NCBI RefSeq assembly: GCF_032854445.1
Contig: NC_088301.1
Span: forward strand, 868,001-932,000
Source of the DNA: Liolophura sinensis
Lineage: Eukaryota > Mollusca > Polyplacophora > Chitonida > Chitonidae
Direction: 5' to 3'
Length of the DNA: 64,000 nt
Shown: in pieces, positions 4,479 through 36,845 of the stretch
How the letters are laid out: the number at the start of each line of letters is the position of its first letter
Position numbering within the stretch: position 1 is the stretch's first letter
Made by a program: the position numbers and the translations under genes
Notes under the pieces: model-generated
Database searches by the model: none
What the model saw: the letters and a program-made list of their open reading frames with translations, nothing else
Told to the model about the DNA's origin: nothing

Positions 4479-4678
4479 NNNNNNNNNNNNNNNNNNNNNN
4501 NNNNNNNNNNNNNNNNNNNNNNNNNNNNNNNNNNNNNNNNNNNNNNNNNNNNNNNNNNNNNNNNNNNNNNNNNNNNNNNNNNNNNNNNNNNNNNNNNNNN
4601 NNNNNNNNNNNNNNNNNNNNNNNNNNNNNNNNNNNNNNNNNNNNNNNNNNNNNNNNNNNNNNNNNNNNNNNNNNNNNN
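4479..4678. other. Assembly gap of 200 N flanked by identical 18-mers
   Basis: Exactly 200 N. The 18 bases immediately left (4461-4478) and immediately right (4679-4696) are identical: CCAATATTTGTTATGTCA. This pattern is expected when two contigs that overlap by 18 bp were scaffolded instead of merged, so the real gap may be zero or slightly negative in length. Reading frames drawn through the N run are meaningless. Confidence 0.95.
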
Positions 4679-6846: not shown

Positions 6847-8627
6847 AAATATATTAATGAATAGAATAATTTTTATCTCTGCCATCCTTGTGCATGTACC
6901 TGTACTACATTTACCATTAATTGCCGCATATATGTTAATTATACTGAAGTACTCAACTGTACACCAGAAGCGAATGAATAAATTTGTTACACAAAAATGC
7001 AGTGTGACCAGTTGTTATGATAGTGACCAAGGGACATCAGCAATACTGACTTCACAAATTAGACACCCAGATTATTTGTGTATTTATTGATTTGATTGTC
7101 CAGGTGTTTGATGCTGTGAAGACTGTTTCTTTTAAATGTTTATGACGAAAGTCTTAAGATTTATAGATGGATGGATGGAGTGAAGAAACTGGGCTAAGCA
7201 TAAGTAGCATGTTGCCTTATCTCTGACGAAGACAAGTATTGATACAAGCTACAGTGGAGCTGAGTCGGAGGCGATAAAACATGTGACCTCACTGGACAAG
7301 GACCCACATATACCAGAGAGGTGATTCACAGATCAACGAAAATGTTTTCAAATCCAACAGTACATGGCTATTTGAAGTATACGACTATAAGCACATAATA
7401 TGCGTTAATACATGTAATGTAATGTTTTTTTTTTTTCCTGAATTCCACTGTAAAGCTGGTTACTACTTTGTCACTACTGCCCATTTTTTCAATTTTGCAT
7501 GTGACTGAAGCACCAATAACATAAATAAATTTAATGATATGGGTTGCATCATGGTAAATATTTCCATGTCAATTAAAATGCATATCATTGGAGTATTTAT
7601 AAGCCTATGAGTACATTTTGTATACTGGTAAACAACTTGGATTGGTATGAGAAGCTGGTAGTTATAAGGATCTTAATTCTCGGATCGTTTGAACTATATA
7701 CATGTGGGAACGTAGTACGGCCCTAAAAATTTGCTCCAAAAGCTCACCTACAGAGGCAACCAAAGGTCATAGAATAATATTATACCATTGCGTTGAAACA
7801 TATTTTTCTAGCCCCTCGAGAAGGACATCATCTTAATTACCTTTTAACAAACCTGTAAACAACTTTATAAGATCAACATAGTTTTCAGAATTAGGCCAAA
7901 AGCATGAATAACTTAATCATGGTCGAAATTTTAGCTCATTTACAGAATCGGTAATCATGGAGGTACATGCATGTTGGCCTAGAATAGTCCAGCTCCATCT
8001 GTTCATGATATGCATGTAAGCCCATACTGACACCTATAATAATAGCCATGTTGAGCTTAAATGTAACTTTACAAAGCAGCCACTGAATACCCTTTTACAT
8101 CTTCACTCTAACAATCCACAGGGTGAATATTGCTAGTCGCGTAACCTTAGAGAGAGCAAATTTCTGACTAGATGAGCACACATGTAACAATACGTAGGCA
8201 TCCGTCGAATGTTTTACTAGACGAGTTAAAAACACTAACTTCGGGATAACCTCCGAAATGACCAATATATATTGTTTAAGTTTTTATTTTTGAAGACACA
8301 GTGTATACTTGTTCTTGTGTATTAGTTATTTAATATTATTATTTGTCTCTCCTATCGCTCTTTTAAATCTTTGTGGGATGATGCTATAAGCTGTCTTCTT
8401 TTTCCGTGAGGATGAGCACATACGACTGTGTTCGGCTCGAAAAGACGTTGTGGGCATGCGCGTCATGTCAGTGCGTTTTATGTGATGTCAGATCCGGTGT
8501 ACAAATTTTCCCAAGATTACCGATAATCAGCCACGCTGAGTTTCCACATTTCAGATGAGCGAATGTCTTGTTTGAATACCAGGACGAAGTTGGGCCTTAG
8601 TCCGTGCGGAGTTATTCACAGGACGCA
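6847..8627. other. Upstream region of ALG2; no separate gene seen
   Basis: AT-rich sequence without a supported coding region. The last 200 bp before the ALG2 start are richer in CpG and G+C than the rest, as expected for a promoter and 5' UTR, but I find no TATA box or other element placed well enough to call. Confidence 0.45.
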
Positions 8628-10953
8628 ATGGTTAAAGTGGTCTTTCTTCACCCAGATTTGGGAATCGGAGGCGCTGAACGAGCGGTCATCGACGCGGCAC
8701 TCGCCTTGAAAAGTCGGCAACACAGGGTTGAGTTTGTGACATGTCATCATGATCCCAACCACTGTTTTCAGGAAACAAAAGACGGTAGTTTAAAAGTGAC
8801 AGTAGTCGGGGACTGGCTACCCCGCAGTGTGTTCGGCCGCTGCATGGCTCTGTGCGCTTACATTCGCATGATTGTGGCCGCTTGCTACCTCGTCATGTTC
8901 AGCAGCATTCAGTACGACGTAATATTCTGCGATCAGATATCCGCCTGTATACCAGCCCTCACATTCAGTGGCAAGAAGGTGCTGTTTTACTGTCACTTTC
9001 CGGACATGCTGCTTACCAAACGACAAACATTCCTGAAGAGACTGTACCGAGGACCTATTGATTGGCTTGAAGAGAAGACTACTGGAATGGCAGACTGTGT
9101 GCTAGTCAACAGTAAATTTACAGGTGCTTACTCATTTTATGTAGAACCTATGCAGTGTGACGCATTAAACACAATGTCAATATGTGCAACACTCGCTAAC
9201 GCTACGAAAATGAAGCTAATGAACTATGGGGGTGGCAGACACTGTATAACAGTGGTCGTAACGTGCTTAATTACATGCTGACATTGGGTCGAAGTAGTGA
9301 TTCAGTAGACATTATATCAAGTGTAACTTTGATATGTAGCCTAAAAGTGTTGAAATATAAAAAATAAGTGGCGTCGGGGTGTGCACTTGTCGTCTTGAGT
9401 CAAGCAGACCTGTGCATTAGATGTGACAAATGAAAAGTTTATTGGATCTTATTCAATCAAATTTTGTGGTCAATTTGTGTTTAAACCCATGTATTTATCT
9501 CAAAATTTGTGTTTATATGATCATTTAAATGATGCTGTACAACTGCTTTATGTTTAAGTTCACCTGAATTTCTTCATTGTTCTTAAGAATTCCCTGTTAT
9601 TTCCGATGTTTCAGCCACTGTCTTCAAGTCATCCTTTAAGTCCCTGTCTCATATCCAGCCTAAGGTGGTCTACCCAATTCCTGATTTTTCCGCCTTCCAA
9701 AAGCCAATAGATCCCCCAGGAGATCTCCTCCCTAAACAGGCAAGAGTGATTTTCCTGTCCATCAACCGATACGAGAGAAAGAAAAACTTAGGGCTGGCCA
9801 TCCAGGCACTAGGTAAGTCTGAAAAGCTAGTCTGGCATCAGCCAGATTAAATTTTGGAGATTTGTTAAAATTATTGTATTCCTGATGTTTGCTAATTCAT
9901 GAGATGTCCCATAGTTTGTTTATTGTAATAGTACAAATAAAATCAATGTGTAACGACAGCTTGGTAGTGGATAGTTCAAATAAAGTGACTTAAAAAAAAT
10001 CTTCAAAAACACACTAACATCAAGTACAGGTATCCACATCCAGATGTTATAGAAAGTGTAGTATTAGTCACCAGGAAACAAATTTATCCTGCAAATACCC
10101 AACAGTTCTGTGCAGAAAACCGATGTATAGGTGAATGACTTCAGTGATGTGACCATCGTTGGACCCCATCAGTGAGAGATAACCTACTCAGCAGACACAT
10201 TTGATGTCTGCAGGATTTGAGAATATATCTGTACCCCACATCACTGTTGTTGTCCATTGCAAAATCGGAGTATTTTGTCTGATGTGGGATAAAGTGCTTG
10301 TCATGGGGGATATAGACCATGATGGTCTTTTCGTTGGCTTAAAACCCCAAGATAATTGGAAGTACATGTGCATGCCCACCCAGTCAAGGTGTGTCAGAGG
10401 ATCCATTGTAACATTTTTAATGCTATTATTTTTGTCAGCTAAACTTGAGGAAAAGCTAGGAAGTCTGGACAAAATCCACCTAGTAATGGCAGGAGGTTAT
10501 GATGACCGAGTTGTGGAGAATGTGGAGCATTACACAGAACTGAGGAAACTGACCACAGATCTGAAGCTGGACGACCACGTGACGTTCCTAAGATCGTTTA
10601 GTGATACGGAGAAGCGAACTTTGCTGCATAACAGCTCCTGTCTCCTCTACACCCCAGACAAAGAGCACTTTGGGATTGTTCCTGTAGAGGCTATGTTCAT
10701 GAAGTGTCCTGTGATAGCAGTGGCCAGTGGTGGGCCTCTGGAAACAGTAGCTGATGGTCAGACAGGCTACCTCTGTGAACAAAGCCCAGAGAGTTTTGCT
10801 GAAGCCATGGTGAAAATTACAACAGATGAAAAGCTCAAAGCCAAATTAGGGCAGGCAGGACATGACAGAGTCATAAAGATGTTTTCTTTTGATGCTTTCA
10901 CCAAACAGCTGGACAGTATAATTAATGATCTTGTACCCAGTGTTAAGAGTTAA
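8628..10953 (+). CDS. ALG2: Alpha-1,3/1,6-mannosyltransferase ALG2, three exons
   Basis: Exons are 8628-9123, 9615-9812 and 10439-10953 (TAA at 10951). All introns are GT/AG and both are phase 1, giving 402 residues; vertebrate ALG2 is slightly longer, about 416. ALG2 is a GT4 glycosyltransferase on the cytosolic face of the ER. It adds the second and third mannoses to Man1GlcNAc2-PP-dolichol from GDP-mannose. Seen in the translation: [11 protein letters not shown] at residues 8-18 (glycine-rich nucleotide-sugar loop), a hydrophobic segment at about 73-93 likely to contact the ER membrane, [13 protein letters not shown] at 120-132, [11 protein letters not shown] in exon 2, and EHFGIVPVE at 307-315, the E-x7-E motif of the family. 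The ATG at 8628 is chosen because the family starts a few residues before the HPDLG motif; the reading frame is open upstream to 8604 but has no earlier ATG there. Reading on past 9123 gives unrelated intron sequence. Confidence 0.96.
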
Positions 10954-11843: not shown

Positions 11844-14800
11844 TCACTGAGTGAGCTTTGCTTTTTTCCACAAAGGTTCTGTGTCTGTTTCTTCTTCCTC
11901 CTCCTCCTCCTCTTCCTGGAAAATCGCTTTTGGCTGAGTTCTGTAACAAGCCAAGGGAGACCACTCTGCGTCAGGCTAAGCTTGTTCGCTCATATGAATT
12001 ACTTCCCTTCTTTAAAGCGTTATGGTTTCATTTTAGATTAGGCATACCCCCCAACTAATTTCAAATCGATAAAATTTCCTAATAAATTTTATGAAATGAG
12101 GGCAATATATCCTTGATCCAAGCACTTCCAACATGAAAGAATGTATGTGAAAAAATTTACTCGTGAAATATTAGCCCTCGAGATGTTAATATGGGTCTGC
12201 ATTACACGCAATACATTTTAACACACAAGTGCAGTCACCCCTCAAAAATTACGCAGATCTATCTCTTACCAACATTATTACTATTATTTTAGAACAGTCA
12301 AAATAAATCACCATTCACAAAATATCGACCTCTGTGCACATGTTGCCTTTCAAATTCACTGATATTTACTGTTTTTATCCTGGTAAGTACAGAAAATTTG
12401 ACTTGATTAGCAAATATTTTTTTTAAGATTTTTTTGTCAAAAATAGATAACCTCTTAAAGCATATAGAAATGATAATTTAGCAAATTGGCCAAACCTTGC
12501 GTAGGCAGGAGCTATCCAGTAGGGGTTCTCGGAGGCCTCCTTGGCATGCCGCAGAATGGCATTCCTGGGGTCCTTATCGGCAGCATCTGGCTTCCTCAGC
12601 ACCAATTGCTGGACAACGTACTGTGACAAAGTGGCTCCCTTAGCTCCCACTCGGCCTCCCTCCCCTGGGGGAAACATACAAAATACCATTCACAACTACT
12701 CCCATAACATGAACAGCACAGGTAGAATAGCCTGAAGGACTATCTGAAAACCAACATAATTTCCATGTACCATACAAAAAGGTTGTATACTGATTTCATA
12801 CATGCCACCGGCCCGGATAGCACAGTTGGTAGAGCGTCCGCTTCGGGACCGGTAGATCCAGGATCAATCCTTGGTCGAGTCACACCTAAGACTTTAAAAG
12901 AGGAAGTTGTAACTTCCTCGCTTGGCGTTCAGCATGAAGGGGATAGTGCAACGACTGGATGACCCGTATCAGTATAATGGCTCGGGCGGGGCGGCTTACT
13001 TGCCTTCGGTAAGTCGTCTCAGTGATGCAGCACTAAATAAAAGAGCGGTGGAAATCCGTCCTGCAACAAGGAGGCACATTACACGTGCATGCACCCTAAT
13101 GATTCCTTCGTCGTCATATGACTGAAAAATTGTTGAGAACGACGTTAAACCCCAAGCACTCACTCACTCATACATGCCCTTATGCAGCATTTCATATTTT
13201 ATAAGCAACATACATGCATACTATGTTTTTTTTTCAGACAAGAGTCCTTGAGAATGAGTGTTAACAACCCAAACACGTGCTGATGTGCATGTTCAAGTCA
13301 GATAATTAATTCTGAACAGACCTGGACCGGTGACTGGCAATTCTGGTCTTCGACTCTTGACTGGATCTTTCCGTAACTTCTCCTCTGTCTTCCTTGTACT
13401 GGTAGGCCGGCCTTCTCGGTACATTGGCAAGGCATAAGCTGTGAATAGAAATAAGGAATTTTCTTAAGAAAACATTATACTTGTTGATATTCAGAATGAA
13501 ATACACAGTTACTACTCACTGGTCAAACCTGTGAACTCCATACTTTCTGTCAATCTCAACACAAACTAAATGTAACTTTGCCAAGACAGCAGCAAGTGCT
13601 GATCTACATACATGTAGTTCATTTTTATACTGGAAGGTCAGCATCGCCATGACATGGCTGAAATATTCTGCCAAACCAAAGAGCCTGGAAGTCTTACTTT
13701 CACAATACAAGATCTCTAACAGCTCAAATAATAATCAGGTCAAAGTCAGAACAAAACGGCCATGATTTTACCAAAAATGGACAAAATGGGCCAAAACTCA
13801 AACTTGGTGAACTCATTTGACAAGTTCCGACTCAGTTCAGGATGATAAAACGTTATGAAAAAAAAATCTGGAAAACTGTTTCGTGGTTCACAAATGCATA
13901 GACAGATGAGAGGTAAACCATACCAGCATTAATAAGATGCCAGATGAAATTTGTTAAGTTTTATCACAGGAAAAACATCGACCATAGCACCAGTAAAGTA
14001 TGCCTGCATACAGCTAGAAACTACAAAATTAAAAAAAAGAAAGAAAAAATTCCCTACATGAGTCAGAAACTGGAGATTTGGGCTTTATAAATACATGTAC
14101 TGTATCAGTCTGAATGGCTTGAGTAGTTGTCAGTGCAGCACTCACGTGTTATGATGTGTTTGTCTGCCATGACCTCCACATGCTTGGTCTTCCTCTTTGT
14201 CTTCACCACACACAGCATGGCACCTCTGCACATGGACAATCACAGGTAGATTTAAATAATACTAGGGCACCAGTAACCTATAATAGTACTGAACTAATAG
14301 GAGAGAACCAGTACAACCTCCTCTACCGAGAGCATGTATGTATACTGTATCTAGTACACTGTGCGTCCACATGGTCTTGTACACCTTCAATCAGACAGCA
14401 AATTGTCTTAGCATGTGTTGTGAATAGTGCACCACCATTATCAGAGGCTAAAAGAGACTACAAAAGAACATCCTTCCAACATGAATATGAGTATATGTCC
14501 CACTTTCCCACTCCCACAGCCCACCATATAAACCCTGTAGGAAAATGTCCACCACAGACTCCTCCCAGGATCATACCATATGGTAGTGCTTCACTCTCAC
14601 AGCCCACCACATAAACCATACAGGACAATGCTCACCTCTGACTGTTCTTAGGATCATAGTACAGCTTCATCTTCCCACTCCCACAGCCCACCACATAAAC
14701 CATACAGGACAATGCTCACCTCTGACTGTTCTTAGGATCATAGTACAGCTTCATCTTCCCACTCCCACAGCCCACCACATAAACCATACAGGACAATGCT

Positions 14801-17800
14801 CACCTCTGACTCTTCTTAGGATCATAGTACAACTTCACCTTCCCACTCCCACAGCCCACCACATAAACCATACAGGACAATGCTCACCTCTGACTGTTCT
14901 TAGGATCATAGTACAGTTTCATCTTCCCACTCCCACAGCCCATCACATAAACAGCACAGGACAATGCTCACCTCTGACTGTTCTTAGGATCATAGTACAG
15001 CTTCATCTTCCCACTCCCACAGCCCATCACATAAACAGCACAGGACAATGCTCACCTCTGACTGTTCTTACAATCATAGTACAACTTCACCTTCCCATTC
15101 CCACAGCCCACCACACAAACCCTATAGGGCAATGCTCACCTCTGACTCTTCTTAGGATCATAGTACAGTTTCACCTTCCCATTCCCACAGCCCACCACAC
15201 AAACCCTATAGGGCAATGCTCACCTCTGACTCTTCTTAGGATCATAGTACAGCTTCACCTTCCCATTCCCACAGCCCACCACACAAACCCTATAGGGCAA
15301 TGCTCACCTCTGACTCTTCTTAGGATCATAGTACAACTTCACCTTCCCACTCCCACAGCCCATCACATAAACAGCACAGGACAATGCTCACCTCTGACTG
15401 TTCTTAGGATCATAGTACAGTTTCATCTTCCCATTCCCACAGCCCACCACACAAACCCTATAGGGCAATGCTCACCTCTGACTCTTCTTAGGATCATAGT
15501 ACAGCTTCACCTTCCCACTCCCACAGCCCACCACATAAACTCTACAGGACAATGCTCACCTCTGACTCTTCTTAGGATCATAGTACAACTTCACCTTCCC
15601 ATTCCCACAGCCCACCACAATCTGGTTCAGTTTGGGGTGCCAGACACAGCGCACAACACTCTGCAAATTATCAACAGCGCATATAATTTATAAGTACAGT
15701 GTAGTGGCTGGGACATAACTATGACATCATATTTCAGCACTTTATTAGTTTTATTCTATGTTTTTCAACCTACTTGTATATTTCGTAACACTTATTGGCA
15801 GAATGTACATGTACAAAACATTAGTATGTAGTTAGCCAAAGATGACAGCCATAACAACCTGGGAACAGTTGTGGGTTTCCCCAGGACTCTGCCCGGTTTC
15901 CTCCCACCACAATGCTGGCCATTGTCGTGTGGGTTTCCCCCGGGCTCTTCCCAGTTTCCTCCCATCATAATGCTGGTCGCTGTCCTGTGGGTTTCCCCCG
16001 GGCTCTGCCCAGTTTCCTCCCACCATAATGCTGGCCACTGTCATATAACTGAAATATTCTTGAAAACTGCGTAAAACACCAATCAAATAAATAAACAGAC
16101 AAACATTACTGTAACATTTACCAGGGTATAATCAAGTACATGTATTACATGTAATAAGTGATAATCTTTATAGTAAGATTAATGAAAAGAACTGTAAAAC
16201 CAGGCCTTGCAATCATCATTCACCTATAAACAACTTAATTAACTCCACTAACTCTCTAGGTCACCTTCATATAAACAAAATATCCCTGAGTACGGCCTAT
16301 CCACACCAATCAAATAAATAAATAAATAGACTCACTGAAGTGGTGACATCCATAGAATGAGCAATATCTAGAGTCTCTCTATCCAGAAACACAAGTTTTC
16401 CTGCTGCTTCGTTCTTCTTCACAGATAAGCCAGTAACAACCAGCCTGTCATCAGGGCTGAACAAACAGTCTGTCCTGTAATCAAGGCAGATACAATATGA
16501 ACACCAGGTCCACACCCATGTACTATCAGTAAAACTACATGTAGTATGTACGAACACCAGGTACACACCCGTGTGTTATCAGTACAACTACATGTAGTAT
16601 GTATGAACACCCGGTGCACACCCGTGTGTTATCAGTACAACTACATGTAGTATGTATGAACACCCGGTGCACACCCGTGTGTTATCAGTACAACTACATG
16701 TAGTATGTATGAACACCAGGTGCACACCCGTGTGTTATCAGTACAACTACATGTAGTATGTATGAACACCCGGTGCACACCCGTGTGTTATCAGTACAAC
16801 TACATGTAGTATGTATGAACACCAGGTGCACACCCGTGTGTTATCAGTAAAACTACATGTAGTATGTATGAACACCAGGTGCACACCCGTGTGTTATCAG
16901 TACAACTACATGTAGTATGTATGAACACCCGGTGCACACCCGTGTGTTATCAGTACAACTACATGTAGTATGTATGAACACCAGGTGCACACCCGTGTGT
17001 TATCAGTACAACTACATGTAGTATGTATGAACACCCGGTGCACACCCGTGTGTTATCAGTACAACTACATGTAGTATGTATGAACACCCGGTGCACACCC
17101 GTGTGTTATCAGTACAACTACATGTAGTATGTATGAACACCCGGTGCACACCCGTGTGTTATCAGTACAACTACATGTAGTATGTATGAACACCAGGTGC
17201 ACACCCGTGTGTTATCAGTACAACTACATGTAGTATGTATGAACACCCGGTGCACACCCGTGTGTTATCAGTACAACTACATGTAGTATGTATGAACACC
17301 AGGTGCACAACCGTGTGTTATCAGTACAACTACATGTAGTATGTACGAACACCAGGTACACACCCGTGTGTTATCAGTACAACTACATGTAGTATGTATG
17401 AACACCAGGTGCACACCCGTGTGTTATCAGTACAACTACATGTAGTATGTATGAACACCAGGTGCACAACCGTGTGTTATCAGTACAACTACATGTAGTA
17501 TGTATGAACACCAGGTACACACCCGTGTGTTATCAGTACAACTACATGTAGTATGTATGAACACCAGGTGCACACCCGTGTGTTATCAGTACAACTACAT
17601 GTAGTATGTATGAACACCAGGTGCACAACCGTGTGTTATCAGTACAACTACATGTAGTATGTATGAACACCAGGTACACACCCGTGTGTTATCAGTACAA
17701 CTACATGTAGTATGTATGAACACCAGGTACACACCCGTGTGTTATCAGTACAACTACATGTAGTATGTATGAACACCTGGTGCACACCCCTGTGTTATCA

Positions 17801-20800
17801 GTACAACTACATGTAGTATGTATGAACACCAGGTGCACACCCGTGTGTTATCAGTACAACTACATGTAGTATGTATGAACACCAGGTGCACAACCGTGTG
17901 TTATCAGTACAACTACATGTAGTATGTATGAACACCAGGTACACACCCGTGTGTTATCAGTACAACTACATGTAGTATGTATGAACACCAGGTGCACACC
18001 CGTGTGTTATCAGTACAACTACATGTAGTATGTATGAACACCAGGTCCACACCCGTGTGTTATCAGTACAACTACAGGTAGTATGTATGAACACCAGGTC
18101 CACACCCGTGTGTTATCAGTACAACTACATGTAGTATGTATGAACACCCGGTGCACACCCGTGTGTTATCAGTACAACTACATGTAGTATGTATGAACAC
18201 CTGGTGCACACCCGTGTGTTATCAGTACAACTACATGTAGTATGTATGAACACCCGGTACACACCCGTGTGTTATCAGTACAACTACATGTAGTATGTAC
18301 GAACACCAGGTCCACACCCGTGTGTTATCAGTACAACTACATGTAGTATGTATGAACACCAGGTCCACACCCGTGCGTTATCAGTACAACTACATGTAGT
18401 ATGTATGAACACCCGGTACACACCCGTGCGTTATCAGTACAACTACATGTAGTATGTATGAACACCAGGTACACACCCGTGCATTATCAGTACAACTACA
18501 TGTAGTATGTATGAACACCAGGTGCACACCCGTGCATTATCAGTACAACTACATGTAGTATGTATGAACACCAGGTACACACCCGTGTATTATCAGTACA
18601 ACTACATGTAGTATGTATGAACACCCGGCACACATCCACGTGTTATCAGTACAACTACATGTAGTATGAGGTGGTATGTACATGTAATGTAGCTGTAAAT
18701 TTTGTTAACTCCTGATAATGCATGCTCACAGATTGTGCTCTCAAAAAAAATCAGTAATCATAGACAATAACTTGAGAAGCAATATTAAGCATATTATACT
18801 ATATCTCCCATTTAGTCACAAACAGATACAGCTTCAGTTGTAAAAGCTTTTTTCTACATTGAACAACAAGGCTAACCATGCGTTCAAATTTATGACTGAC
18901 TCTTAGAGAACACCAATGAAATAAATCTACATTAGAATATAGAACTGTGCACAATTTTAAGTTGATCACAAAGCTCATTTACAAACACTGCCAGCTTTTC
19001 TCAAATAAACGAAATGCCAGAAGTACTGGCTGAAAACTTACATGGGGAAATAATTACACAAATTTTGTTTCACTCGGAGTGGCTGCTTAAAATTTCTGAT
19101 GTCCCATAATTTCAGGGTGTCATCACCTAAAAAGCAGACAAAGGCAACATCTGAACAAATGAAAAATTAAATCTGTAAATTTAGAGCACAGAATGTAATG
19201 TAGGTAATTTTATATATTTATAGAATTGCCAATTGTGCCTCAGACATGTCCACACCCATGTCAGGTGATAGACAGTGAGAGGGTACTTTTACATGCATTA
19301 GTACTACACCAATAATCATGGTTAGGTACTGAAAGTTTACAATCACCTCAAAATTAAAGAATCACAAGGGACCCTCCACATAAATAGTTTGCTTCAGGTT
19401 CGGTTAAAACAAATTAAATGAATGAACACTCAAACAATGGGTGTCAAGTTCATTCGATTTTTTTCCTTGCAACAGGATACGACCCAGCTGTGTTTATCTT
19501 TCCTACATCACACTTTCACAACGCAGTAAATTATATACCAAATTAAGTAACACATCACTTTTTATTTTAGCTTTCTCACCTTTTAGTTACTTTGTTAAAA
19601 AAATGTAATGTATCCAATCAGTCGATTGTTAATAATAACAACTCTCCCTTAAACATGAATAAAGCTTGCAAAAAAAAGAAAATGCCCTTGAGGGTAAAAC
19701 AATTGTGCCTGACTACAAAACAGGCTTCCCTGTAGTGGTCACGTGTCTACTTTGGCTGAAGAATGACATGAAACAACTCATTCTCAAGAATGGGGAGGTT
19801 GGGGAGTCTCATGGGGAGGGCATGAATTGGCCGAAAATTATTTAACTTTTTTAATTATTTAACTTATCAAATGGCACACACAGACCACATACATTTCATA
19901 TGACACCTGCAACCTGGGACAGGTGAGGTTCTGAAAGGTATCCCTCAATCGCTGAGACAACGTGATGTCTGTCCTTACAATGTCTGCAGTAAATTTAGCG
20001 CAGAATTGCCAATATGTAACACAGATGCGTATGAACTAATTATTTTAAAATTATGCTCGAAGATATGAATAATGTAGTTATGTATAACAAATTCCAGCGA
20101 ATACTTCACCTACGCTCCCACCCCTTGGAAGCCTCACTCAATTACTTCAGACTTGGATTGAACTGAAGATACTTTTCACAAGGATGAGAGTGACACAAAC
20201 TATACAATGTGTATGGATTACAAAATCTGCTAAATATTTCAGAAATTATTAGCAGATAACAAATACACAACAAAGAGCATGATTAAAATATTATTAATAA
20301 GACTTAAGACATAAGCTGGAAGTTGACAGCTAGTATGTACATGTATCCTGCAGAAATTTGTAAGTAGCTTTTGGTAATCATCTCTACTGGTACACTGGTA
20401 CGCCTACCTCTAAATATTTGGTTTCACCAAGACTTGGTGTGAGTACATGCTGACACCTGTTTAGAATCTTACATATGACAATGAAAACTTTTAATCAGCG
20501 GGAAGCAGAGCTCATCAGCAGGAGTCATCAACACCTGCACGACAGCCTTGGCCACATCCAAAGTCGCAAAGATGTATAAAATATTTTACATTAAATGCCT
20601 TAAATATTCTTGATTAGATCTTAAGCTAAGATTTGCCCAAATCTGGACAAAAGCCCATTGCACCATATAGCAGTCAGCACTCGACATCGGCTTTTACAAA
20701 ACCTCCAGTGCTACTGCAGGATGTAGCATAACTGGACAGTGGACACAAAAGTAGGCCTGTTTTAGATATAGGCAGGACTACATACTGTACGTCCGACCAC

Positions 20801-23800
20801 ATAATTAGGTCTATATACTTAACACCGTCAAAATATGTAAGTGCGAAACTTGTGCCTTGTGGGAAAAGGTTTCACAAGTGGAGCCACTGTTGCTGTTCAG
20901 ATTTGTTATATAAAGTAGACTGGCACTGATAGCCACTTTACCAATTGCCGGTTTACACAACGATGTTTAAATGTGGCCGACCGATGTGGGGAATCCTTTG
21001 ATTCCTTTAAATCGTTTAAACCGAATGGAAGGGCGTAGCTTGGATTTGTTTTTTTGGGAGAGAAAACATAAACGAATGCAAATGATTTATGGGGAAGGTC
21101 CCTAACATAACTCATTCCACATCGTTTCTAAGATGTGATAAGAACAGATAATTTATTCCCAATGCCTCTGACACTATTCACTGAGATATGAACACCATTT
21201 TCCTACAGGTCAAACTATGCTTATGCCCTAACAATTTACTAAAACTTCAGAATCTCCACAGCACAAATGTTGTCATCATGCTTACCTCCCCTTGAGGCTA
21301 AGACTTTTCCATCATAAGAGAATTTCAATGATGACGTGTCACTGCCGTTCATGTGAGCATTTCTATTCTTCAAAGCCACATTTACCTAGAGAAAGAGAAA
21401 CAGAAACAGAAAATATTACAACCCTGTACAAACACAGAAGGTTCTGGTCATTACAGCAACAACATGGATATTATCATCCTTTTCCAGACATTCCAAAGCT
21501 CACAGAAATTGTTGCGCTTAAAAATGAGATCTTGCTGGCCAAGTATAATCAATGGTGTCACACAATAGAATACAGTCTCCACTGGAAGATGACTGACCCA
21601 TAAATTTGACAGCTGCCAATTTTGGTAAAAGTACAATGTACAGCACCAATCAAGCAAGTGGTGCCAGTTAATGGAGATGTGAGAACACCCAGAGACAAGT
21701 CCTCATGGAATTAAAAAATATTCCTTCTCCCCATTACTATGGTAAATAAAACAATTCTTGTTTTCTTGTCCTAGTGACGATGTTGTGACTTAAATTAAAT
21801 GCCATTAAAGACTTGTAAAATGTTTAAGGTATAACATGTATGTTTTAGCCCTAAACTCACAAAAAACCTGCTATGTTCCCAGATCTGTATGGATCCATCC
21901 TGGCACGCTGCAGCCACATATCGCCCATCGTTACTGTACGTGCACGTTGTGGGAATTGTCTTCCTGCCCTGCTGGGACTTTGTCTTGATTATATTCTTAT
22001 GTTTACGCTCCTGATTCACATCCCATAACCTCACTGTTCTTCAAGACAGAACACGGAAACAGAACACACTTACATGTAAGCTTTACTCTGAAAAAGTGAG
22101 GCGATCGTAAGTGAGGGGATCGTAAGTGAGGTGATCGTAAGTGAGGTGATCATAAGTGAGAGGATCGTAAGTGAGGGGATCGTTCTAAACAGAAGTCTTC
22201 AAACTACATTTGAATCTGTATAATTTTTGCAACTTCTCTGAACAATACCTGGCATGATAAACATCCTGCGTTAGGGAATAGAAAAATTAAATTGTACAAG
22301 TTTACTTCAACTTGTATAAATGTTTATGGGACTGAATCGCACATCATTTGAAAAGTCACGTAAAGCACAGCGTTAACCTGAAAGACACTCACACAGAGTT
22401 AACCTTAAGGACACTCACACAGAGTTAACCTTAAGGACACTCACACAGCGTTAACCTGAAAGACACTCACATAGGGTTAACCTGAAAGACACCCACACAG
22501 CGTTAACCTTAAGGACACTCACACAGCGTTAACCTGAAAGACATTCACACAGAGTTTGCCTGAAAGTACATTTCTCTCCCATTTTATAAGATTTTTCACA
22601 AAACTTCACTTTCACTACAGAACAGTCATATTTTAAATGACTCTTCAATAGTGACAACAAGCAATTCTCATTCAGAGATTCAGTACTGTTATCAACTTAT
22701 ATTTCTCACCCATCATTTGCACATGTGAGAAATTCCTCCTTGATTTTCGGATTCCAGCAGCCGGAGTTCAACATGGCTGTGTGGCCCTGAAAACAAAACA
22801 GCAGTCCTGTGTAAAAACTACTCGCTATATTACATAGAGTTGAGAATTACAGGTGTTTCTATATATAGCACAATCTCCATCTGAGAAATACACTTGAGTC
22901 AGTGAGAGCCCCCTCACCTTGGTACTGGCCATATCCACCAGGTACTGGTCTCCTTTCACACACTCCATCTTCTCAAAGCCGTCTCGGTCTATGACCTTAG
23001 CCTGTGAGTTGCCAGCCACAACAAGAATGACCTCTCCAGTAGGGCTGTACTCAAGGGTTTTGATCTGGTGACTGAATTACACAAGACGTATCAGACACAA
23101 GACGTATCAGGTACAAGCCATATCACACACAAGACGTATCAGGTACAAGACATATCACACACAAGATGTATCAGACACAAGACATATCAAACACAAGATG
23201 TATCACACACAAGACATATCACACACAAGACGTATCAGGTACAAGACGAATCACACACAAGACGTATCACACACAAGATGTATCAGACACAAGACATATC
23301 ACACACAAGATGTATCAGACACAAGACATATCAAACACAAGATGTATCACACACATGACGTATCACACACAAGACATATCACACACAAGACATATCAGAC
23401 ACAAGACATATCACACACAAGATGTATCACACAGAAGACGTATCACACACAAGACGTATCAGACACAAGATGTATCACACACAAGATGTATCACACACAA
23501 GACGTATCAGGTACAAGACGAATCACACACAAGACGTATCACACACAAGACGTATCACACACAAGATGTATCAGACACAAGACATATCACACACAAGATG
23601 TATCAGACACAAGACGTATCAGATACAAGACGTATCACACACAAGACATATCACACACAAGACGTATCACACACAAGACATATCAGGTACAAGACGAATC
23701 ACACACAAGACGTATCACACACAAGACATATCACACACAAGACATATCACACACAAGATGTATCAGACACAAGACATCACACACAAGATGTATCAGACAC

Positions 23801-26800
23801 AAGACGTATCAGACACAAGACATATCACACACAAGGCATATCACACACAAGACGTATCACACACAAGATGTATCACACACAAGACGTATCAGACACAAGA
23901 TGTAACAGACACAAGACGTATCAGGTACAAGACGTATCACACACATGACGTATCAGACACAAGACGTATCAGACACAAGACGTATCACGTACAAGACGTA
24001 TCAGGTACAAGACGTATCAGACACAAGACGTATCAGACACAAGATGTATCAGGTACAAGATATATCAGACACAAGATGTATCAGACACAAGACATATCAA
24101 ACACAAGATGTATCACACACAAGACGTGTCACACATAAGTGATATCAAATGCAACAAAGGAATCTTTCAATACACAATAAAGTGGAAGCTCTAAAAATTT
24201 GGCTTTTTGTAAACATTTACTACTGTGTCGGTTACTTAAAAAACACTACAAATGTTTCCATGAAAATCACAAAATACAAGCAATCCTACGTACGTGTACG
24301 CAAAGATATCAAACAGACAAAAAACTACGACCTGGTTTAGGCATTTAATGTAACAGTAGTTATGGTTGACCACCTACCATTCACAAGGACGCAGCTGTCT
24401 GAAGGACTTAAAAGAGCTATCCATGCCAGCAAAGTCCCAAAATTTGACATTGTAGTCAAACCCTCCTGTGACAAGACGAGCTCCAGACGGGTCCAGGGCA
24501 AGAGCAGATACCTAAAAAGATAACAATAGTGTTTAGGTCTAGCTGGGAGAAACATCCATTGTCTTTCATAAATGGGCAGTTATCTCCCCTGAAGTACTGT
24601 CAAAATGTAATACTGGAACTGAAAGTACACCACATTCATCAGATGCCATGTGGAGAGCAGGGTCTCACCCTAAAACGTAACTGAAACATTTACGATCTAA
24701 GCTTCTTCTCTTCTTTATAGGGCATCAAAAGAGTTTTTAATGGCATAAGGAAAAAAGTCTAAACACTTGAACATCATAATTTAGACAACTGATCTATCAT
24801 CTATGTCCTTTACTTTATTTTGAAACTATCATGGCCGATTTATTGGGGATGTCGGAGCTATTGCAATTTTGTCCTTGTTTTCCATTTATTTCATTGATTC
24901 ATTCTGTACTCAATACTATTTCAGAACATCTGACCACTTACTGTTTTGTCCCCATGATCCAGCTCTGTCTCGTGACTTTCTGGAATACGACTTGTTAGGC
25001 CCTGGACAGACAAGGAAAATAACAAGTAACTACATTCTGTAGTACACTGCTACAAACCATCTTCCTGTCAGCAACATTAATACTTACTTTAGGCTTCGTA
25101 ATCACCTTTGCTTTACTGTACATATCAAAGTCTTAGGAAACCTACTCTTTTGACAACCGATGACATTAAGGCATGCATACTTCCACCAGGGCATTTTCAA
25201 CCAATCATTGATCGTCCCTTTCAAGTGTGTATTTCCTTGGTTCAAAGGACGTGCGCATTTGGATCCAATTTATTCCTTGAGGCAACATTATACAGTAATA
25301 AGCAGAGCTATGAACAGTGATCGATGGGCTTTCACTGAAACGAACAGGCAGCAGAAAATCAAAGCCGATCAATGTAGACTATGTTGTTGTCATTTTGCCA
25401 TTAATTTCTACCAAGCCTACTTGGCCTCAAAATGACCGTCCCCCTACAACCCTTAACACGTCGATGTGCAGGGACATATTATGCGCAAGCACATTAACAC
25501 CTAGCTGTGAAAAAAATTTATTTCATACACCGCATACTTCTCACGACAGCTACATCCCATGTTGTTTTGAACTTCTGTCAGTGTCAATAACAAAGGTTAT
25601 TAGACCATGAATCATGCGTACTTCTAAAGGAAAGTTCAGAGTTTTGAAGAGTTAATATAGCTCAGTAAATGTCAGACATCGCTCGCTTGATTACATGAAG
25701 ATGCTATAAACGAACCTGAGAGGAACCATAAAACAAGAATTCATAACCTTTTTTTTTTCTCATTAAACACAGTGGCCTTCAATTACAGCTGGCCTGCCTT
25801 ACATTAAGTCAGCAGCAAATGCCATAAGAAGCTAGGATATTTAACAAAGAAGACCAATGGTGTTGAAATGGTTCCTAAGTCAATTCCATGACTGTCATTA
25901 AATGGCTGGAAGTTTGCCATCTTAAGAGTTTTTGTCTTACCTCCTCCTCCTCCTCTTCACTATCCCCATCTTCATCCTCATCCTCACCCCTCTCTCTCTG
26001 TATGGACACTGCCCCTGACTGCCCTCTGCCTCCCTCCACACTCTTTCCATGGGACCTCTTCAGAGTGTGACCGCTCGAGTCAGGGGCCTTAAAGCCTGGG
26101 GGTAGTGGAGGACCCACCATGTCATCTTCAGGTGCCTCTGTCCGGCCAGTGGCTTTCTGTGCAGGTTTGGTACCTGGTGGAAGGGGAGGACCAATCATTT
26201 CATCCTCAGAGACACTGGAGTCTGAACCAGAGTCACTCTCAGAGTCAGATCCGCTACTGCTCGATGAGCTGGGCCCTTTGCCAGTTTTTACTGTGTCTTC
26301 TTTGTCTTCATCTGAAAAATGTGTTTGATTGATGTTTAACGCCATTATATACCCAAAACTTTTCACTTACAAGACAGTAATCAGGTTTTTGGTCAGAACA
26401 ACCCAGAGTGCGCAGAATAAACCATTATCATTTCCTAAGCACCTGTCACACTGCCTTAGACTTGCACGCAAAACTACGGCAACAGTAGTGAGAGATTTGT
26501 GACCTCAATGATCTTGGGCCTATTAGCTGAGAAAAACAGAACCGAAAGTATCCAATGAGCCAGCAAGAAATTAATGTCTTTAGGAAAAGTATAAATCTTT
26601 ATAAAACTATTTCATACAATCACAGAATGAAAAATAAACCAAGGAATGCTAACCCACTGCTTTTCATTTCATGTAGTCAAAGCCCTTTACAAAAGTGTAT
26701 TATTAAAATTATGTTTAGAAACCTTCCATAAGAATGAGCATATATGCACTATGAGTGCTGGGGTTTAATGTTATACTTTGCAACTTTTCAGTAATATGAC

Positions 26801-34654: not shown

Positions 34655-35376
34655 AAGGAGCGACTGTATGAACTAGAGTGCCAAGGAGCGACTGTATGAA
34701 CTAGAGTGCCAAGGAGCGACTGAACGAACAACAGTGTCAGGGGGCGACTGAATGAAGTAGAGTGTCAAGGAGCGACTGAATGAATTAGAGTGTCAAGGAG
34801 CGACTGAATGAATTAGAGTGTTAAGGAGCGACTGAATGAACTAGAGTGCCAAGGAACGACTGTATGAACTAGAGTGTCAGGGGGCGACTGAATGAACTAG
34901 AGTGTTAAGGAGCGACTGAATGAACTAGAGTGCCAAGGAGCGACTGTATGAACTAGAGTGCCAAGGAGCGACTGAATGAACTAGAGTGTCAAGGAGCGAC
35001 TGAATGAGCTAGAGTGCCAAGGAGCGACTGAACGAACTACAGTGTCAGGGGGCGACTGAATGAAGTAGAGTGTCAAGGAGCGACTGAATGAATTAGAGTG
35101 TCAAGGAGCGACTGAATGAATTAGAGTGTTAAGGAGCGACTGAATGAACTAGAGTGCCAAGGAACGACTGTATGAACTAGAGTGTCAGGGGGCGACTGAA
35201 TGAACTAGAGTGTTAAGGAGCGACTGAATGAACTAGAGTGCCAAGGAGCGACTATATGAATTAGAGTGCCAAGGAGCGACTGAACGAACTAGAGTGTCAA
35301 GGAGCGACTGAATGAACTAGAGTGTCAAGGAGCGACTGAACGAACTAGAGTGTCAAGGAGCGACTCTATGGATGAG

Positions 35377-35665
35377 TGAGTGAATGAGTGAGTGAGTGAG
35401 TGAGTGAGTGAGTGAGTGAGTGAGTGAGTGAGTGTGTTCTTGGGGTTTAACGTCGTCATATTTTTCAGTCATATGACAACGAAGGAATCCTTAGGGTGTA
35501 TGTAATGTGCCTCATTGTTGCAGGACAGATTTCCACCGCTCTTTTATTTAGTGCTGCTTTACTGAGACGACTTAACGAAGGCAAGTAAGCCGCCCCGCCC
35601 GAGCCATTATACTGATACGGGTCAACCAGTCGTTGCACTATTCCCTTAATACTGAATGCCAACTT
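35377..35665 (-). mobile_element. SINE inside the 28-bp array, copy 1, expanded tail
   Basis: Antisense copy of the SINE family, truncated at the tRNA side. It is bounded by TATGGATGAG at 35367-35376 and 35666-35675. Its tail microsatellite (GAGT on this strand) is expanded to roughly 14-15 units. Confidence 0.92.
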
Positions 35666-36514
35666 TATGGATGAGAGTGTCAAGGAGAGACTGAACGAAC
35701 TAGAGTGTCAAGGAGCGACTTTATGAACGAGAGTGTCAAGGAGAGACTGAACGAACTAGAGTGTCAAGTAGCGACTGTATGAACTAGAGTGTCAAGGGGC
35801 GACTGAATGAACTAGAGTGTCAAGGAGCGTCTGTATGAACCAGAGTGCCAGGGGCGACTGAATGAACTATAGTGTCAAGGAGCGATTGTATGAACTAGAG
35901 TGTCAGGGGGCGACTGAATGAACTATAGTGTCAAGGGGCGACTGAATGAACTAGAGTGTCAGAGGGCGACTGAATGAACTAGAGTGTAAAGGAGCGACTG
36001 AATGAACTAGAGTGTCAAGGAGCGACTGAATGAACTAGAGTGTCAAGGAGCGACTGAACGAACTACAGTGTCAAGGAGCGTCTGTATGAACTAGAGTGCC
36101 AGGGGGCGACTGAATGAACTAGAGTGTCAAGGAGCGACTGTGTGAACTAGAGTGTCAGGGGGCGACTGAATGAAGTAGAGTGTCAGGGGGCGACTGAATG
36201 AAGCAGAGTGTAAAGGAGCGACTGAATAAAGTAGGGTGTCAAGGAGCGACTGAATGAATTAGAGTGTCAAGGAGCGACTGAACGAACTAGAGTGTCAAGG
36301 AGCGTCTGTATAAACTAGAGTACCAGGGGGCGACTGAAGGAATTAGAGTGTCAAGTAGCGACTGTATGAACTAGAGTGTCAAGGGGCGACTGAATGAACT
36401 AGAGTGTCAAGGAGCGACTGAATGAAGTAGAGTGTCAGGGGGCGACTGAATGATCTAGAGTGTCAAGGAGCGACTGAATGAAGTAGAGTGTTAAGGAGCG
36501 ACTCTATGGATGAG

Positions 36515-36760
36515 TGAGTGAGTGAGTGTGTTCTTGGGGTTTAACGTCGTCATATTTTTCAGTCATATGACGACGAAGGAATCCTTACGGCGTATGTAAC
36601 GTACCTCCTTGTCGCAGGGCGAATTTCCACCGCTCTTTTTATTTAGTGCTGCTTCACTGAGACGACTTACCGAAGGCAAGTAAGTCGGCCCGCCCGAGCC
36701 ATTATACTGATACGGGTCAACCAGTCGTTGCACTATTCCCTTAATACTGAATGCCAACTT
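36515..36760 (-). mobile_element. SINE inside the 28-bp array, copy 2, short tail
   Basis: Same truncation point, same strand and same flanking TATGGATGAG (36505-36514 and 36761-36770) as the copy at 35377. Neighbouring array units on both sides also match. The tail is about four units. This is a duplicate of the same insertion, not a second insertion. Confidence 0.92.
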
Positions 36761-36845
36761 TATGGATGAGAGTGTCAAGGAGAGACTGAACGAACTAGAG
36801 TGTCAAGGAGAGACTTTATGAACGAGAGTGTCAAGGACTGAGTTT

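Follow-up and report, generated by a model that had tools for sequence, protein, structure and literature searches.

What becomes of splicing when the end of an exon, together with its donor, is repeated eleven more times in the intron that follows, and twelve identical donors face a single acceptor? This question is raised by a tandem array in the 64,000-nucleotide stretch of Liolophura sinensis DNA analysed here (the window), where the exon belongs to a minus-strand gene that the first-pass annotation had named WDR70. The features concerned are the following:

12496-25001, minus strand: part of WDR70 that was modelled, 12 exons with GT/AG joins, 464 aa without a stop
15560-15660, minus strand: WDR70 exon of 101 nt, ending in ...KKSQ plus AG and encoding SVVRCVWHPKLNQIVVGCGNGKVKLYYDPKKSQ(R), with an open frame, a CAG acceptor, a GTGAGC donor and a match to the WDR70 chain
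14146-14225, minus strand: next WDR70 exon, 80 nt, with the acceptor GTCCATGTGCAG that all the donors face
15536-15619, minus strand: copy 0, the native unit (60 nt of exon and 24 nt of intron), donor GT at 15559-15558
14612-15535, minus strand: copies 1-11, intronic, 84 nt each, without indels
15475, 15391, 15307, 15223, 15139, 15055, 14971, 14887, 14803, 14719 and 14635, minus strand: donors of copies 1-11
14529-14611, minus strand: 13th copy, diverged, its donor degraded to GTG/GTGGAC
14501-14528, minus strand: 14th copy, partial, a 28-nt stub that closes the array

Judged by its predicted protein, the modelled part of the gene reads as WDR70 with an open frame. The exon edges were set by our own reading of GT/AG sites and frame, and 460 of the 464 modelled residues align with the WD repeat-containing protein 70 chain 6zym_p (E 5e-208), whose sequence is identical in 7a5p, 8i0w and 9xtt; therefore, the name WDR70 stands. 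A 145-aa piece gave Pfam matches to WD40 (23.9 bits, below the curated cut-off of 27) and to the EML propeller (23.6 against a cut-off of 90, far below it), and since these matches are below cut-off the identity rests on the chain match. A large protein search for relatives returned 21 proteins, the best match being 60% identical. The exon overlapped by the array is the ninth of 12 consecutive joined exons. Upstream of these, at around 26.25-27.0 kb, there is more coding sequence, with ARTFDF... and an acidic stretch, and the last C-terminal WDR70 exon was not found in the gene reading of the window. Elsewhere in the window, a plus-strand open frame (8601-9278) carries a glycosyltransferase family 4 domain (Pfam PF13439, E 2.7e-13) and looks, we presume, like ALG2.

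Regarding the array itself, TRF reported a single one at 14501-15619 (period 84, 13.3 copies, 91% matches, 0% indels, score 1690), which is in the minisatellite size range and takes in 60 nt at the exon's 3' end. The array had been annotated at 14499-15621; it is present, although its ends lie two bases inside that span on each side. In splice-site register the unit consists of 60 nt of exon end plus 24 nt of intron start. Between 14101 and 15720 we found 12 exact matches of TCAGAGGTGAGC on the minus strand, and the first intron bases after them fall at 15559, 15475 and so on to 14635, every step being 84 nt. The TRF result and these positions confirm the eleven further copies at exact 84-nt spacing and the diverged one that had been reported. 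The 13th copy has one 2-nt and one 1-nt indel and many substitutions. GAG/GTGAGC is found in 12 of the 13 full-length copies and is missing from the 13th, thus the native donor is itself part of the repeat and returns in later units. The eleven extra donors are indeed intact, as copies 1-11 have the same GAG/GTGAGC, and the acceptor of the next exon is at 14225, where it had been placed.

The choice among these donors matters for the product. If copies 1-11 served as donors, the exon would measure 185-1025 nt, versus 101 nt for the native one. In all 11 modelled alternative products a stop follows SQR immediately, 83-923 nt upstream of the next junction, which is what had been predicted from the codons AGG TGA for any donor other than the native one. 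This stop arises because the exon ends with AG in phase 2 and is followed by GTGAGC, hence it is no sign of design. By the usual rule, a premature termination codon calls for NMD when over 50-55 nt separate it from a junction downstream; the distances in the 11 modelled products all exceed this value, as in a poison exon, and the alternative products are expected NMD targets.

Nothing in the donors themselves singles out the native one. By a general donor weight matrix that, like the U1 5' end used with it, was not derived from this organism, the 12 array donors tie for the best score (6.27) among the 161 GTs of exon and intron, the next best reaching 3.42, and the native donor ranks third of the 13 listed donors of the gene, which range from 0.49 to 7.22. 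We also considered an RNA structure that would hide the copies and leave the native donor free, and rejected it because predicted accessibility gives no discrimination: over 9 nt, the 12 donors range from 0.0005 to 0.041, the native one having 0.012 and 0.0028 at two settings (the gene's 13 donors range from 0.0001 to 0.17). The native donor is therefore marked locally by its position and by exon length alone.

Arrays of this type are known in other genes. The IFI6 minisatellite has a short unit of 12 bp and gives IFI6 isoforms. Two of the downstream repeat units of IFI6 are used as donors, according to PMC4526556. In human ABCA7, as described in PMC5954066, the intron 18 VNTR has a 25-bp unit that starts with the exon 18 donor, and the reference has 23.7 of these units. 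The transcript that retains a single unit makes up 2 +/- 1%, a share unaffected by VNTR length, and transcripts with a premature termination codon rise with cycloheximide; longer arrays are associated with lower ABCA7 expression and with increased skipping of the exon that follows (PMC5954066). The uniqueness that the first-pass annotation implied is thus not borne out, since donor-bearing minisatellites have been described in both human IFI6 and ABCA7 (PMC5954066, PMC4526556).

The WDR70 array resembles ABCA7 in being a tandem repeat right after an exon that repeats its donor, where use of the second donor means a premature stop. However, the ABCA7 unit begins at the GT, has no exon sequence and is polymorphic up to several kb, whereas the 84-nt unit of WDR70 carries 60 nt of conserved coding exon together with the donor. 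As in IFI6, a minisatellite at an exon end supplies several donors. Unlike in IFI6, where downstream donors are in actual use, any other donor of WDR70 would truncate the protein. There is also a likeness to the gain of introns through tandem genomic duplication (e.g. PMC4974935), in which a stretch bearing a splice site is copied inside a gene; nevertheless, no new intron is evident here and the copies, which have no convincing acceptors, lie inside an existing intron. Our literature search, of limited coverage and with further donor-bearing repeats perhaps in print, found nothing closer than IFI6 and ABCA7. The WDR70 array is best classed as a variant of the donor-bearing minisatellites, set apart from ABCA7 by the 60 nt of coding exon that accompany each donor.

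We consider it about 80% probable that the array is a neutral donor-bearing intronic minisatellite, which expanded by chance from an exon-intron boundary and is tolerated since the exon-adjacent donor wins. The founding unit would have happened to straddle the boundary of the WDR70 exon, with 60 nt on the exon side and 24 nt on the intron side, and the array would then have grown into the intron via tandem duplication and unequal exchange. The native donor would be recognised by exon definition, closing an exon of normal size, and WDR70 would stay functional because this donor ends such an exon. Copies 1-11 would need the longer exons with their immediate stop, probably feeding NMD, and copy 1 may be used at a low level. 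The array with its identical donors, the gene being open over 12 joined exons and the use of the second ABCA7 donor at around 2% count for this reading, as do the origin of the repeat from the exon and the array-rich background, both set out below. Against preferential use of the first donor count the identity of the 12 donors from -8 to +10 and an accessibility that does not favour the native one; against neutrality, the effects of ABCA7 arrays on next-exon skipping and expression, and the use of downstream units in IFI6. Where 5' splice sites compete, splicing can move to the intron-proximal one when U1 binds several strong sites at once, and such multiple occupancy by U1 would oppose use of the first donor. 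A paper on U1 or U2AF stoichiometry did not decide the choice among tandem donors.

The decoy donors might instead form a regulated off-switch, in which U1 is sequestered or splicing is diverted to truncated NMD-prone products, perhaps as a feedback on WDR70, which is itself a spliceosome-associated protein; we regard this as quite unlikely. The immediate in-frame stop behind 11 of 11 alternative donors would suit such a switch, and so would the WDR70 chain in PDB 6ZYM, which is given as the H. sapiens C complex model in the key resources table of PMC8022279. A relative of the gene product is therefore part of one or more spliceosomes of solved structure. PMC7845644 reports more unspliced HIV-1 RNA after WDR70 depletion; in one place it describes WDR70 as not linked to splicing, in another as a possible member of the Prp19-associated complex. 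However, the stop follows automatically from GTGAGC in the native phase, the donor was lost in the diverged 13th copy, and the second donor of ABCA7 is used at only around 2% (PMC5954066). All 12 copies have the same donor, with identical sequence over 18 nt, which would also speak for a switch. Nevertheless, such invariance is expected by chance: when the 14 variable columns (out of 84 in the 12 good copies) were placed at random, the donor 9-mer was spared in 18% of the trials (P 0.18) and an invariant run of 18 or more appeared in 41%. The invariance is not beyond chance and was rejected as evidence of selection on the donors. A graded version of the switch seems more doubtful still. In it twelve identical donors would compete, conditions favouring the intron-proximal ones (a higher level of U1 or SR proteins, or a lower one of WDR70) would lead to truncated NMD forms, and copy number would set the gain.

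The same 12 copies differ from each other by a mean of 6.35 of 84 nt (7.56%, range 0-12), and copies 10 and 11 are the only identical pair. By eye, the distance table suggests interleaved subfamilies (1, 3, 4, 5; 2, 6, 7; 8, 10, 11), and the native copy has its closest match in copy 9 (3 differences), its neighbour being further off (6). This interleaved pattern seems easier to reconcile with several rounds of block duplication or exchange than with a single recent burst. Intact donors had been taken to imply recent homogenisation; with a mean divergence of 7.6%, and a donor 9-mer that chance alone spares in 18% of the placements, recent homogenisation is overstated.

These differences also bear on whether the assembler made or miscounted the tandem copies, which we find hard to credit. 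The identity of copies 10 and 11 would agree with it, and there is an assembly gap in the window, a run of 200 N at 4479-4678. However, two copies can differ at as many as 12 of the 84 positions, their variants are interleaved and the phase is kept; furthermore, the whole array, at around 1.1 kb, fits within one long read, and there are many other arrays in the window.

Slightly less probable again is that the array makes exon variants, the copies being extra exons or recursive splice sites in an intermediate of intron gain with AG/GT proto-splice sites. AG/GT is indeed present in 12 of 12 copies and the unit of 84 nt is a multiple of 3, but a native-frame stop stands in 12 of 12 units, and for this reason a coding use of the copies was rejected. 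Acceptors for cryptic exons inside the array look weak as well, though they might serve: the best AG, at 14534 and within the diverged copy, has 11 pyrimidines among the 19 upstream bases and those of the intact copies have at most 10, equal to the lowest of eight native acceptors that we checked, which have 10-14 of 19.

It could also be asked whether the exon came from the repeat. The 60 exonic nt encode VVGCGNGKVKLYYDPKKSQ(R), which aligns to human MVGTGNGLAKVYYDPNKSQR, and the native exon keeps residues common to the human chain, specifically, the second V of VVG, the N of GNG, the P of DP and the K of KSQ. In the intronic copies these conserved residues are altered: V becomes M in 3 of the 11, N becomes S in 7, P becomes C in 1 and K becomes N in 6, and six of the eight variable exon-derived columns change a residue. 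Because the segment is conserved in the WDR70 protein and the copies change conserved residues, these alignments show that the exon founded the repeat and not the reverse, and the intronic copies look free of coding constraint. With the native exon plus unit as query, no other copy of the unit was found in the window, the best outside match having 11 bases (E 1.4). Both results agree with the direction that had been proposed from the first reading. That the exon end was recruited from an older satellite is therefore extremely improbable, as the segment sits in a conserved protein, the unit is absent elsewhere in the window and no point in its favour was found there.

How unusual is such an array in this DNA? 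The minisatellite load is very high: merging the TRF output gave 33 arrays, their base periods set at 2 to 84 nt, that amount to 15,372 nt or 24% of the window, and six of them cover 33% of the modelled gene span. With our own exon edges and the six arrays of the gene, chance alone would be expected to place around 0.22 founder units across one of the 13 donors (summed periods). One donor-straddling array is thus mildly unusual, not extraordinary. Among the 26 modelled junctions, a count that leaves out the coding sequence around 26.25 kb, only 1 lies inside an array, versus an average of 8.6 when positions are shifted circularly (P = 0.009 for 1 or fewer). It is as if arrays over splice sites had mostly been purged as harmful, and the WDR70 array had survived since its first copy works.

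Other arrays of the window come close to WDR70 exons. A 16-bp array of around 66 copies (23079-24139) ends 8 nt upstream of the minus-strand exon at 23071, so the satellite forms most of the pyrimidine tract of this exon. A 53-bp array (16496-18668; 41 copies, 96% matches) fills most of one WDR70 intron and comes to within 22 nt of the acceptor for the exon at 16474. At 15870-16042 a 58-bp unit is present three times, beside a stretch that we take to resemble a mollusc-type SINE tail. Further away there is a 28-bp array of around 65 copies (34655-36503), with a short array of 28-bp period behind it (36757-36837).

Duplicated-splice-site experiments have been used to argue proximity against exon definition and against U1 occupancy. 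With twelve donors identical over 18 nt, each in a near-native exon context of 60 nt and all facing one acceptor, the WDR70 array is a natural experiment of this kind. Each choice of donor would give an mRNA of its own length, so that a ranking of the donors purely by position could be read from ordinary RNA-seq or long cDNA. Should nearly all the splicing go to the first donor, this would be strong in-vivo evidence for a choice limited by exon length. If the first donor does not dominate, the gene would have an unusual truncating switch.
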